DNA from: Rhodocyclaceae bacterium
GTDB taxonomy: Bacteria > Pseudomonadota > Gammaproteobacteria > Burkholderiales > Rhodocyclaceae
DNA length: 8,460 nt
Assembly: GCA_013821865.1 (NCBI GenBank)
Contig: PNJM01000102.1
Span: 1-8,460 of the forward strand
Reading direction: 5' to 3'
Positions 2,744 through 6,538 of the stretch are shown piece by piece. The notes beneath the pieces were generated by a model. That model saw nothing but the letters and a program-made list of their open reading frames with translations, was not told the origin of the DNA and made no database searches. Positions within the stretch are counted from its first letter, which is position 1; each line of letters opens with the position of its first letter. The translations under genes and the position numbers were made by a program.

Positions 2744-3937
2744 CTAGGGGTTGCGTCGGTAAGTGCTCGCCGGATCTTTCTCCGGCGGCGTCTCCGCCGG
2801 TTGCGCCGTCCGGGCTTCGGCCGCCAGTCTCGGCACATTATCGCCCGTGAGGCTTTTCAGGAACGAGACCAGCGCCGCCTTCTCCTCCGCCGACAGTCCG
2901 AGCGGCCGCAGATGCGGACTCTTCTGCGGATTGTCGATGCCGCCGCGGTCGTAGAATTCGACGACGGCTTCCAGCGTGGCGAATGAACCGTCGTGCATGT
3001 AGGGCGAGGTGAGCGCGACGTTGCGCAAGCCTGGCGTGCGGTAGGCCCAGGTGTCCGCCGGGTCGAGGGTCACTTCGTAGCGTCCGACGTCGGGTTGCGG
3101 CGGCTCGAACGATTCCAGCGCCTTGTCCTCGACCTCGGCGAATACACCCGGTGCGAGCTGGACGCGGTGCCTGCCCGGCTGTCCCATGCTTTTCGCGTAG
3201 CCGATGCCGGTGTTATGGAAGCCGTTGTCGGAAAACAGGGCGAATTTCCCGCCGATCGAGTGGCAGGCGCTGCAGCCGGCCTTGCCGGCAAATAGCCGGA
3301 AGCCTGCCTGCTCTTCGGCTGTCAGGGCATTTTGCTCCTTGCCGTAATGCCAGCGATCGAAACGGGAATTGCCGGAGACCAGGGTGCGCTGGTAGGCCGC
3401 CAGCGCCTGGCCCACGGTCAGCACGTCGGGGCCGCGTCCGCCGAAGGCCGATTCGAAGCGGCCGGTGTATTCCGGAAGGACCTTGATCTTCTCGATGACG
3501 TAGCCGATGGACGGATTGGCCATTTCGTTGCCGGCGAGCAGCGGCCCCCACACCTGGTTCTCCAGGCTGAACTCGCGGCCGTCGTGGAACAGCTGCTCGA
3601 CGTATGCCACGTTGTATACCGTGGGCGAATTGCGGCGGATGCTCTGGCCTTCCAGCCCGATGGCGGTACCCAGTTCGTTGGAGGTGAAGCCCTGCTCGGG
3701 CACATGGCACATGGCGCAGGACAAGGTGTTGTTGTGCGAAAGGCGGCGGTCCATGAACAGCGTCCGCCCGAGTTCGACTCTGGCTTGCGTGAGCGGATTT
3801 TCCGGCGGCAGCGGAACCGGCGGCAGCCCGAGCGGCGGCGCCAGGCCGAGCGGCGCATTGCCCGGTGCGCCTGGCCGTTCGCAGGCAGGCAGGGCCAGCC
3901 CCCACAGCATGAGGAAGGCGCAGGGCAACCGCTTCAT
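2744..3937 (-). CDS. Di-heme cytochrome c peroxidase / MauG-family lipoprotein
   Basis: The 397-residue protein has two c-type heme sites, CAMCH (74-78) and CSACH (222-226), in the order and spacing of the CCP_MauG family. These periplasmic enzymes reduce H2O2 or, as in MauG, use it to modify a partner protein. The N-terminus MKRLPCAFLMLWGLALPAC has a lipobox ending at Cys19, so the mature protein is probably lipid-anchored on the periplasmic side. A Pro-rich tether (about 20-47) follows. Late motifs are RTPGLRNVALTSPYMHDG (300-317) and TLEAVVEFYDRGG (321-333). Tyr329 aligns, from memory, with the distal ligand position that is Met in classical CcpA and Tyr294 in MauG. The start ATG overlaps the SCO stop by 4 bases, making it the third gene of the mtoX operon. 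There it may mature MtoX or remove the H2O2 that MtoX makes. The family is certain; the exact activity is not. Confidence 0.9.
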   Translation of the reverse strand: MKRLPCAFLMLWGLALPACERPGAPGNAPLGLAPPLGLPPVPLPPENPLTQARVELGRTLFMDRRLSHNNTLSCAMCHVPEQGFTSNELGTAIGLEGQSIRRNSPTVYNVAYVEQLFHDGREFSLENQVWGPLLAGNEMANPSIGYVIEKIKVLPEYTGRFESAFGGRGPDVLTVGQALAAYQRTLVSGNSRFDRWHYGKEQNALTAEEQAGFRLFAGKAGCSACHSIGGKFALFSDNGFHNTGIGYAKSMGQPGRHRVQLAPGVFAEVEDKALESFEPPQPDVGRYEVTLDPADTWAYRTPGLRNVALTSPYMHDGSFATLEAVVEFYDRGGIDNPQKSPHLRPLGLSAEEKAALVSFLKSLTGDNVPRLAAEARTAQPAETPPEKDPASTYRRNP

Positions 3938-4629
3938 TTCAGCCTGACCCCGTCTTCCATGAGGAGGGTCTTGATGTCGTTCAGCACCATCTCGGGCAGA
4001 AGATAGTCAGTGGTGTAGATCTCGCGCACCGCGCCATGCCGGTCGATGAGGAATACCTTCAGCACGTGGCTGTAGGTGCCGACCGGTTTGCCGGTCGTCT
4101 TGTCGATGTCCACCCCCACATCCTGGCCGAAACCGTTCAGGATCGGCAACAGCTCGCGTCGCGAGCGCGTGGTCAGGAAATCCCAGGCAACATGCTGTCG
4201 CGCCCCACTGTGATCGCGCCCGTAGAGGGCGATGACCTGCGGCGTGTCGCGTCCCGGGTCGAAGGACAGGCTGACGAAGCGGACCCGGCCGCGGGTTTCC
4301 GGCAGCTTTTCGAGTTCGTTCTTCACCAGGTGCATGACCGTGAAGGCATAGGGACAACCGTTCGGGTCGGCGCAGGAGGAATACATGAAGGCGAGCAGGG
4401 TGACCCTGCCGCGCGTAAACCCGGACAGCTTGCGGCGCCTGCCGTCGGCATCGAGCACCGCGCCTTCCGTCGCCGGCTGGATCCGCTCCAGCTTGTAGGT
4501 GCCGGCCATCGGCGGCACGAAATCCATGACCGGCGCGGCCGGCGCGGCGCAGGCAGCCAGCCAGCCCAGGAAAAAAAACCCGCCTCTTGTCAGGAGGCGG
4601 GTTGTACGCGACACCGCGAAGAACCCCAT
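3934..4629 (-). CDS. SCO1/SenC-family copper chaperone lipoprotein
   Basis: SCO proteins are membrane-anchored thioredoxin-fold copper carriers or thiol reductases that metallate copper enzymes. The 231-residue product starts with a basic region and a hydrophobic stretch ending in LAAC (24-27), a lipobox giving Cys27 as the lipidated residue. The thioredoxin-like core includes LLAFMYSSC (78-86), VSLSFDPGRDTP (119-130) and YSHVLKVFLID (186-196). Probable copper ligands are Cys86, Cys92 and His188. The cysteines are five residues apart (C-ADPNG-C) instead of the usual three (CxxxC). The start at 4629 lies 3 bases after the mtoX stop and is the only one that keeps the signal peptide; it has no strong ribosome site, so translation is likely coupled to mtoX. 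Codons 9-20 also encode a perfect intrinsic terminator. The most plausible client is the copper enzyme MtoX next door; this is inferred from position. Confidence 0.92.
   Translation of the reverse strand: MGFFAVSRTTRLLTRGGFFFLGWLAACAAPAAPVMDFVPPMAGTYKLERIQPATEGAVLDADGRRRKLSGFTRGRVTLLAFMYSSCADPNGCPYAFTVMHLVKNELEKLPETRGRVRFVSLSFDPGRDTPQVIALYGRDHSGARQHVAWDFLTTRSRRELLPILNGFGQDVGVDIDKTTGKPVGTYSHVLKVFLIDRHGAVREIYTTDYLLPEMVLNDIKTLLMEDGVRLK
4571..4603 (-). terminator. Intrinsic terminator/attenuator inside the SCO signal-peptide codons
   Basis: Read on the minus strand, AACCCGCCTC pairs perfectly with GAGGCGGGTT around the 7-base loop CTGACAA, and the right arm runs straight into a T-tract (10 consecutive T including the last two stem bases). 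This is a canonical Rho-independent terminator, oriented for the mtoX operon and placed 30 bases after the mtoX stop. It lies wholly inside the SCO reading frame, encoding residues 9-20 (TTRLLTRGGFFF). It should end many transcripts after mtoX and let a fraction read through to the SCO and peroxidase genes. On the plus strand the hairpin is not followed by T, so it works in one direction only. Confidence 0.85.
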
Positions 4630-4632
4630 GCG

Positions 4633-5994
4633 CTACGGTTTCCGTGCGATCAGGGCCGGCGGGCTTTGCGCCGACTCCAGCGGCTTGAGAGTGGACAGGT
4701 CGCGCGCCTGGAACTTCATGTGGTGGGCGCGGCCGAGCTTCTCCTTGTAGAAGTCGATCTCGAATGCCAGCTTGAGATCCTTGCCGTCCCAGTGGTACAT
4801 CTTCAGGAACTGCTCGTCGTCCTTGCCTTTCTTGTCCCAGTTGCCCAGCAGCGACGAGGTGAAATACACGCGCTTGCCGTCATAGCTTTGCGACACCATG
4901 TTGACCTGGGAGCCGATTTTCTTGGTGAAGACTTCCTTCGGCTGCATCGGGTCGGACATATCCCAGTAACGCGTGGTGCCGTCCATGAAGGTGTTGATCC
5001 ACATGCCCCTGCCGTCGTTGGTGATGCTGATATCCACGGGCAGCGGAATTTTGACCGGATCGCCGATGGTGGCGACGTCCTTCACCTGCCATTCCCCCTT
5101 GGCATCCTGCTTGTAGACCCAGATCTTGGACGTCAGGGCAGTGGTGGTGACGGCCCAGTTGTCGCCCGGCTTCCATGACCAGCGCACCTCCAGCGGCGCG
5201 CCCGGTGTCTGGAACACCTTGAGCGGCTTCATGGTCTTCATGTCCCACATGACGGAAGTGTTGCCGAAGCGCTTCATCGCTTCGCCGTCCTTCACCAGCT
5301 TGCCCAGGTCCATCATGTAGTTGTTCCACCCCGTGAACGATGAGGTGAGGAAGACGTTCTTCTGCGGGTTGATACCGGCATCGTAGCCGTAGCCGTCGCC
5401 GCCTCCTTCCTTGGGCATCGGGTGGTGGGCGACGTAGTCACCCTTGTTGTTGTACACGGCGATGCCCGTTTCCCCGCCGTGATCCTTGTTGTTGGACAGG
5501 GGCGTGATCAGCATGCGGCCCGGCATGGCGATGAAGGAGTGAGGCCCGACGAAGCCGGTCTTCTGCACGAAGTTGGTGATGGTTTTCGTCAGCTTCGGCT
5601 TGGCCGGGTTGGTGCCGATGTCGAAGATGTAGATCTTGTTCGAGTCGAGCGCGCCGCCCCAGAGATAGCGGCGATCGTCCGAAAGGCCGACGTGATGGAC
5701 CTCGCCGCGGCCGCCGAGCGACAGCTTGTGGATGATCTTGCCGTAGGTCTTGGAGTGGGGATTGACGTCCACGGTCACCAGCTTGTCGGAGCCGTCGCCG
5801 ACGCCCTTGACGCCCAGGGTCCACACGTAGACCAGATCTTCCTGCCCTTTGATCAGCGGCGTGTAGGGCGAGCAGCTGGTTTCGTCGGCGAGCGCCGGGC
5901 CGCTCGGCAGCGCGACACCGGCCAGAGCGGCGGAGACCGCCAGCGCCAGCGCCATCTTGCGGGGTCGGTTTCTTCCTTGTGTTGTGTTTTTCAT
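4633..5994 (-). CDS. mtoX: SBP56-family periplasmic protein, probable methanethiol oxidase MtoX
   Basis: MtoX oxidises methanethiol to formaldehyde, H2S and H2O2 and is a copper-dependent enzyme of the selenium-binding protein (SBP56) family. The 453-residue product follows the family from end to end. It has CSPYTPL (41-47), LVTVDVNPHS (72-81), EVHHVGL (98-104), KIYIFDIG followed by KPKL (120-135), GPHSF (150-154), a beta-propeller-like middle, RYWDMSDPMQPK (342-353), DGKRVYFTSSL and NWDK (372-388), and RAHHMKF (422-428). Candidate copper-binding histidines are 100/101, 152 and 424/425. A Sec-type signal peptide (basic NRPRK, hydrophobic stretch, ALA-DE) predicts cleavage after Ala36, leaving about 417 residues (roughly 46 kDa) in the periplasm. 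The start is fixed by an AAGGAG site 6 bases upstream. The Cys-rich WNxCxSC motif of animal SBP56 is absent. Adjacent SCO and MauG-like genes, the known partners of mtoX, support the assignment. A different thiol substrate cannot be excluded. Confidence 0.9.
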   Translation of the reverse strand: MKNTTQGRNRPRKMALALAVSAALAGVALPSGPALADETSCSPYTPLIKGQEDLVYVWTLGVKGVGDGSDKLVTVDVNPHSKTYGKIIHKLSLGGRGEVHHVGLSDDRRYLWGGALDSNKIYIFDIGTNPAKPKLTKTITNFVQKTGFVGPHSFIAMPGRMLITPLSNNKDHGGETGIAVYNNKGDYVAHHPMPKEGGGDGYGYDAGINPQKNVFLTSSFTGWNNYMMDLGKLVKDGEAMKRFGNTSVMWDMKTMKPLKVFQTPGAPLEVRWSWKPGDNWAVTTTALTSKIWVYKQDAKGEWQVKDVATIGDPVKIPLPVDISITNDGRGMWINTFMDGTTRYWDMSDPMQPKEVFTKKIGSQVNMVSQSYDGKRVYFTSSLLGNWDKKGKDDEQFLKMYHWDGKDLKLAFEIDFYKEKLGRAHHMKFQARDLSTLKPLESAQSPPALIARKP

Positions 5995-6000
5995 GCTGTT

Positions 6001-6006
6001 CTCCTT
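6001..6006 (-). promoter_or_regulatory. Strong ribosome binding site of mtoX
   Basis: AAGGAG on the minus strand, 6 bases before the ATG at 5994-5992, is a near-perfect Shine-Dalgarno sequence. It is the best ribosome site in the window and contrasts with the weak sites before the SCO and peroxidase genes, fitting high production of the oxidase. Confidence 0.8.
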
Positions 6007-6020
6007 GTACGGGGTGTACT

Positions 6021-6026
6021 ATTTTA
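6021..6026 (-). promoter_or_regulatory. Candidate -10 box of the mtoX operon promoter
   Basis: TAAAAT on the minus strand matches TATAAT at five of six positions and sits 26 bases upstream of the mtoX ATG, which would give a leader of about 20 bases containing the ribosome site. The hexamer 17 bases further upstream (CGTCCA) is a poor -35, suggesting an activator-dependent promoter. An alternative -35-like GTGACA lies at 6083-6088 but has no good -10 at the right distance. Confidence 0.35.
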
Positions 6027-6104
6027 GTGACCGCCTGCGGCGCTGGACGGGGTACCCAGCACATGTAACCACGCGACGGTTTGTCACGCTTCAGGTATGA
6101 AATT

Positions 6105-6121
6105 GTTATTATTGAAATAAC
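6105..6121. promoter_or_regulatory. AT-rich inverted repeat upstream of mtoX, possible operator
   Basis: GTTATT-ATTGA-AATAAC is a 6-base perfect inverted repeat with a 5-base centre, lying in the only strongly AT-rich patch of the window (about 6098-6126). It sits about 80-95 bases upstream of the candidate mtoX -10 box, a distance typical of activator sites. The bound regulator is unknown. It also lies about ten bases before the junction where the response-regulator remnant begins. Confidence 0.35.
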
Positions 6122-6133
6122 TTAACAGAGTAG

Positions 6134-6538
6134 CCGGCGCGCAAGGTTCTGCTGCCCATCATTTTCATTACCGGGCACGGCGACGTGCAGATGGCGGTCC
6201 GGGCGGTGAAGTCGGGCGCCTTCGATTTCGTGGAAAAGCCGTTCAATGATCAGGATTTGCTCGACCGGATTCAGAAGGCGATCGCCAGCGACGCCGAGTG
6301 CAGCGAGCGGCAGGCTCGCCAGGCCCGGTTGCGGACGCGCTTCGACAGCCTTACCGGGCGCGAACGCGAGGTGCTCGATCTGGTCGTCGAAGGGCTCTCC
6401 AACAAGGCGATTGCCAATTCGCTTGGCGTGAGCGCGAAAACAGTCGAAGTGCATCGGGCGAAAATGATGGAGAAGATGCAGGCGCATTCGGTTTCCGACC
6501 TGGTGAAAATGGCAATGCAGAACCAGGCGGCATCCTAG
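6134..6538 (+). pseudogene. 5'-truncated FixJ/NarL-type response regulator remnant
   Basis: The reading frame after the TAG at 6131-6133 translates directly into the second half of a FixJ-like receiver domain: [19 protein letters not shown], then [14 protein letters not shown] linker follows, then a complete LuxR-type helix-turn-helix: [20 protein letters not shown], then [16 protein letters not shown]. FixJ-family proteins are about 200-210 residues; this one lacks about the first 70, including the acidic pocket and the phosphoacceptor Asp. The conserved Thr (ITGHGD) and Lys (EKPF) of the receiver remain. The 130 bases upstream do not encode the missing part in any frame I could recognise, so the loss looks like a deletion or rearrangement rather than a point frameshift. 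A 117-residue DNA-binding product from GTG 6185 or ATG 6191 is conceivable but has no good ribosome site. It is divergent from mtoX and convergent with lpdA; no partner kinase is visible. Confidence 0.8.

Follow-up and report, generated by a model that had tools for sequence, protein, structure and literature searches.

The mtoX operon and its neighbourhood

The window, by which we mean the whole 8,460-base stretch of DNA that was analysed, belongs to a Rhodocyclaceae genome of 2.76 Mb in 548 contigs. On its minus strand lie three co-directional genes, mtoX, then SCO1/SenC, then a MauG-type gene, which is the gene order of the mtoX operon, together with a hairpin and a run of T near the start of the second gene:

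4633..5994, minus strand: mtoX, methanethiol oxidase, 453 aa (NCBIfam NF052453, 732.7 bits, cut-off 650)
3934..4629, minus strand: SCO1/SenC gene (SCO), predicted copper chaperone, 231 aa (Pfam PF02630, 39.8 bits, cut-off 22.8)
2744..3937, minus strand: MauG-like di-haem peroxidase, 397 aa (Pfam, above cut-off)
4531..4629, minus strand: predicted SCO signal-peptide codons (basic residues, FFFLGWLAAC, then APAAP)
4577..4603, minus strand: hairpin with a 10-bp stem and a 7-nt loop, in SCO codons 9-18
4571..4578, minus strand: run of eight T, the first two shared with the stem, in Phe codons of the hydrophobic stretch

The SCO ORF has no match in NCBIfam, and the NCBIfam matches of the MauG-like ORF (MbnH family, MauG) fall below cut-off. 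Three nucleotides separate the mtoX stop codon (4635-4633) from the SCO ATG (4629-4627), and the SCO and MauG-like ORFs share 4 nt (3934-3937), so that the initial annotation's description of overlapping genes holds for SCO and the MauG-like gene and not for mtoX and SCO. With three co-directional genes spaced in this way, the hairpin is placed inside a predicted operon. Among named records, the closest SCO sequences are from Rhodocyclaceae, Rhodocyclales and Sulfuritalea assemblies. An SCO of the window's kind (E <= 1e-20) was found in 20 of 395 genomes of the family, the window's own included, and in none of 15 other genomes of the genus, and the distribution of the operon is therefore patchy.

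Upstream of mtoX, on the plus strand (6146-6538), lies a FixJ/LuxR-type response regulator that lacks the N-terminal half of its receiver; the ORF matches the FixJ model only from position 89 and below cut-off, and its frame becomes open past a stop near 6130. Eight relative loci, extending no further than about 1.6 kb beyond mtoX on that side, were searched for the regulator and yielded no copy. By eye, an inverted-repeat-like element, TTGACAC-tggaa-GTGTGACAA, is visible ahead of mtoX in L035; L033 has a similar element, and the window a degenerate version of it (5995-6130, minus strand). It is possibly an operator.

A hairpin and T-run in predicted signal-peptide codons

The minus strand reads AACCCGCCTC-CTGACAA-GAGGCGGGTT, in which the stem occupies 4603-4577 and is followed by six further T. 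The ten pairs are perfect, seven of them G-C, as expected of an intrinsic terminator stem (at least about 5 bp and G+C-rich), and the eight T directly 3' of the stem provide the expected U-run. This is the hairpin and T-tract that had been described on the strand of SCO; its distance into the SCO ORF was correctly given as 26 nt, and its distance from the mtoX stop codon is 29 nt rather than 30. The folding energy of a 41-nt piece carrying the element is -18.4 kcal/mol, where shuffled sequences give -7.4 (sd 2.3; z -4.8, 0 of 200 as low). A 61-nt piece departs less from its shuffles (z -1.6, 12 of 200 equally low or lower) and has no competing antiterminator stem in its minimum-energy fold. 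An attenuator of the trp or pyrBI type would have a separate short leader ORF, and this hairpin lies within the 231-aa SCO ORF. A search of the window against Rfam at gathering score returned no known RNA family.

The element was also said to lie in codons for a signal peptide, and the predicted peptide bears this out, with basic residues followed by a hydrophobic Phe stretch. One stretch of DNA is able to serve both roles because a G+C-rich stem is readily written in basic and glycine codons, and a U-run in Phe codons.

Recoding and background frequency

A loose terminator scan of the window gave 8 sites, which is no evidence by itself since 6.8 (sd 2.7) were expected. A strict scan (dG <= -8, at least 6 T of 8) returned this element as the sole site on both strands of the 8,460 bases. 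When the element was recoded synonymously, preserving the protein and local codon usage, only 1 of 3000 recodings was as good and 27 of 3000 reached -14. TTT and TTC occur in a ratio of 1:22 in mtoX and the SCO body, yet the T-run is written TTT TTT TTC. Recoding was extended to 25 loci; a hairpin with 6 of 8 T is present in 16 of them, equalled in each case by 0-22 of 3000 recodings, and absent from the other 9; one of the 25, L043, was recoded with mtoX in a wrong frame, as its odd codon usage and very long branch indicate, and has no qualifying hairpin. The mtoX and SCO-body DNA of the 25 loci, the misframed L043 again included, contained no hairpin with dG <= -14 and 6 T, either in the 51.2 kb read in sense or in the 51.2 kb read in antisense. 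At L106-L109, loci of the f43 family, a hairpin is favoured by the encoded peptide alone, with 130-194 of 3000 recodings attaining -14.

In 240 kb of the window's genome there are 14 strong hairpins (dG <= -14, 6 T), one of them within 120 nt of an ORF start (198 ORFs), and in 400 kb of a genome of the same genus there are 24, four of them near an ORF start (305 ORFs); these counts use raw longest-ORF starts, and start calls are uncertain. Folded singly, the elements of L033 and L035 stand out from their shuffles (3 and 2 of 200 as low) and the regions of L034 and L036 are ordinary (30 and 36 of 200). We rejected a mobile repeat as the source of the element, the lone second match in the genome being weak (37 bases at 84%) and located in mtoX, outside the hairpin. 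Slippage of transcription on the T-run was rejected as the function being kept, the longest T-run ranging from 3 to 8 among loci with the hairpin in the SCO ORF.

mtoX-SCO junctions in relatives

The survey of junctions, drawn from contigs of named genomes and from further species genomes, examined 77 distinct loci and counted hairpins with dG <= -10 and at least 5 of 8 T that start -6 to +140 nt from the mtoX stop. In 73 of these mtoX adjoins SCO, and the other four (L071, L081, L096, L103) were excluded for having no adjacent mtoX by script. Same-genome duplicates (L004-L007, L037, L045, L055-L058, L060, L104, L105, L118-L120), weak remote SCO matches (L008-L032) and five class-level matches without an issued locus were also excluded. 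A terminator-like hairpin is present at 38 of the 73 junctions and absent from 35, and the same count applied to 572 windows cut from mtoX coding sequence gives 1. Of the 38 hairpins, 23 lie inside the SCO ORF and 15 in ordinary spacer before it, the latter including L097 and L098, which were placed there by hand as their full signal peptide starts downstream. In a wider sample of the phylum, 5 of 398 genomes matched and gave three new loci outside the 73 (L161-L163), none of which has a junction hairpin (at least 5 T, dG <= -10).

In an mtoX tree of 71 rows, the tree program having discarded L088 and L089, one supported clade of 26 (97/84) contains 21 of the 23 in-ORF cases; the other five rows of this clade have no hairpin, and the in-ORF cases L066 and L068 lie apart. 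Spacer cases are similarly grouped, with 14 of 15 in a separate clade of 24 whose other ten rows have no hairpin. A terminator-like element just past mtoX is thus recurrent, and in one clade the predicted SCO frame starts ahead of it and reads through. The close relative L036 has lost the hairpin, and L039, its neighbour on a fork of 80/89 support in a 13-row tree that includes the misframed L043, has a different stem in another register. Three side observations concern these junctions. The in-ORF stem of L111, L112 and L113 consists of 9-10 C facing 10-11 G, a tract of variable length that could shift the SCO frame. At L055, the same place as L063, a terminator-like hairpin lies on the opposite strand (7 of 8 T, dG -13.6). 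The motif GG-x-FF occurs in the signal peptides of several distant SCO proteins (P0084-P0120, among the 120 listed of 4077), a hint, from protein sequences only, that overprinted terminators may be more widespread.

Paired base changes in the stem

Nine sequences of the window's group share one register, L039 being left out for its differing register, and 95.6% of their stem positions pair. Their covariation score is 0.300 against 0.193 in shuffles (0 of 500 as high). The counts of doubly changed pairs (3, reached in 72 of 500 shuffles) and of pair types (8, reached in 374 of 500) are unremarkable. A second group of nine sequences, eight of them distinct, has its register one codon away (L111-L113 left out) and shows 92.5% pairing, five doubly changed pairs and a score of 0.264 against 0.132 (1 of 500 shuffles as high); in both groups the shuffles ignore relatedness. 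Sliding the partner strand by 1-3 columns lowers pairing to 37-61% in the window's group and 59-64% in the second. Pair 4-28, which is A-U or G-C, needs at least two changes on the weakly resolved 13-row mtoX tree, which has only two starred branches and includes the misframed L043 row. The changes are not silent: ACC with TTT in the window (Thr, Phe) becomes GCC with CTT (Ala, Leu) in L034 and L035. It had been asked of relatives with the same gene order whether the stem is kept by paired changes while the encoded residues differ; it is so kept, yet 35 of the 73 junctions have no hairpin. Together the data from relatives point to selection on the hairpin.

Function of the element

We consider it probable that the hairpin and T-run form a partial intrinsic terminator under selection at the nucleotide level, such that most transcripts would end after mtoX, and SCO and the MauG-like gene would be expressed by readthrough. 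The observations behind this reading are the element itself, its improbability given the codons, the paired changes in relatives and its distribution over clades; from the sequence, termination, its efficiency and the resulting expression ratio are plausible. As RNA polymerase exits mtoX, the hairpin would form at a distance of 29 nt from the stop codon, roughly where it escapes coverage by a ribosome at that codon, and too early in SCO for a newly loaded ribosome to have caught up, so that most polymerases would be released at the U-run. In the excerpts of PMC5739008, SCO and MauG are proposed to mature the oxidase, and from these roles we infer a benefit in unequal amounts, the oxidase being required in bulk and the chaperone and maturase in small amounts. 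Against a partial terminator stand the 35 of 73 junctions without a hairpin, the loss in L036, the poor T-runs of some relatives, the spacing in L044 and L068 and the ordinary counts of double changes, and this reading has a cost, in that each terminated mRNA would contain the SCO start codon but no stop codon to go with it.

Alternatively, a ribosome passing from mtoX to SCO by re-initiation might cover the hairpin before it folds, so that readthrough would follow translation or export. Coupling is suggested by the 3-nt gap and by the lack of a clear ribosome-binding site ahead of the SCO start codon, and ribosomes are described as able to suppress terminators in translated regions (excerpts of PMC4824070 and PMC5021804). 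However, in an E. coli operon studied by Li et al., translation of the ORF cut the efficiency of a terminator 30 bp past the AUG by only about 10%, and efficiency in E. coli is maximal once the upstream stop codon is more than about 27-30 nt away (both from the excerpted text of PMC4824070). The 29 and 26 nt of the window fit the slot that would be permissive by analogy with E. coli, and plain partial termination is favoured over a ribosome-controlled gate because of this match. Across the in-ORF cases the hairpin starts 20-50 nt past the mtoX stop (median 39) and 13-48 nt past the first possible SCO start, and L044 and L068, at only 20-21 nt past the mtoX stop, would fall outside the slot. 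The suggestion in the initial annotation that a ribosome entering SCO melts the hairpin has therefore become less likely, and with the antiterminator stem absent from the 61-nt fold we regard a regulated gate as doubtful. We hold equally doubtful a dual-coded element for export and termination, in which the Phe codons of a Sec signal peptide would be the U-run kept in the clade and coupled translation from mtoX into SCO would tune readthrough, the supply of chaperone and maturase tracking translation of the oxidase.

It is rather unlikely that the hairpin mainly protects the mtoX mRNA after processing, as a 3' barrier and not a terminator. Strong hairpins with poor T-runs do occur in some members of the clade (L040, L044, L111-L113), and the hairpin of L043 is almost without T, but at least 6 of 8 T are kept in 18 of the 23 in-ORF cases (recoding and junction surveys pooled) despite a strong preference for TTC.

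Still less likely is a late start of SCO, past the hairpin and from a promoter of its own, by which the element would be an ordinary intergenic terminator, as at the 15 junctions with one in the spacer. An in-frame start codon closely follows the T-run in L107-L109 and L115, and in a comparison of five close relatives there is no excess of third-position differences in the nine codons ahead of the hairpin (21, 22 and 16 at positions 1, 2 and 3). The same relatives show a slight excess in the 17 codons after the hairpin (38, 32 and 51), and four mature SCO sequences show a strong one (74, 54 and 275); these patterns are compatible with a loosely constrained signal peptide but are no proof of translation. 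In all 23 in-ORF cases one to four basic residues precede a hydrophobic stretch. However, the window, L034, L035, L038, L059 and L110 have no in-frame ATG, GTG or TTG between the hairpin and the end of the hydrophobic stretch, and in these six an exported SCO must therefore be read through the hairpin. A promoter scan of the window found no sigma-70-like site, other promoter types being outside its reach.

Chance, by which a G+C-rich arginine and glycine stretch followed by Phe codons would mimic a terminator, is the least probable reading and was already disfavoured, for although the loose scan is at chance level and strong in-ORF hairpins lie near raw ORF starts elsewhere too, the recoding test, the excess at junctions and the paired changes speak against it.

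A partial terminator in these codons would be a natural and testable case of one sequence used for both transcription termination and protein export, and a possible way to obtain unequal amounts of a cofactor-dependent enzyme and its maturation proteins from one promoter. Paired changes that alter the protein suggest that selection at the nucleotide level would outweigh particular signal-peptide residues. Predicted terminators inside genes are easily set aside as noise, and in annotation a terminator call and a gene start at one place need not be mutually exclusive.

Comparison with known systems

Partial terminators inside operons set expression ratios in E. coli rplL-rpoB and rpsU-dnaG-rpoD. 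They do so also in Methanococcus maripaludis (PMC10450193, in excerpt), and early-ORF terminators can be active (PMC4824070 and PMC7815308, in excerpt), so that both elements of our proposal are already known. The apparent novelty is that compensatory change conserves a terminator which also forms the predicted signal-peptide codons of the downstream gene, a case of which we found no report in the open-licence literature searched. Like the partial terminators described in the available text on M. maripaludis, the element lies between co-directional genes and would pass a fraction of transcripts; unlike those, which are intergenic (PMC10450193), it is written in codons of the gene that follows, where compensatory change maintains it. 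The mtoX-SCO1/senC-mauG operon of PMC5739008 has identical genes in identical order, and the available part of that paper describes no terminator between them, the word being used once, for a sequencing kit. As in the E. coli W48 construct and the pyrBI leader (PMC4824070) and ORF-internal 3' ends (PMC7815308), all of which can terminate according to the excerpted texts, a hairpin and U-run lie within about 100 nt of a start codon. W48 is a construct, however, pyrBI a leader peptide and the 3' ends those of a single genome, whereas the element described here lies in the predicted signal peptide of a functional protein and occurs in many genomes.
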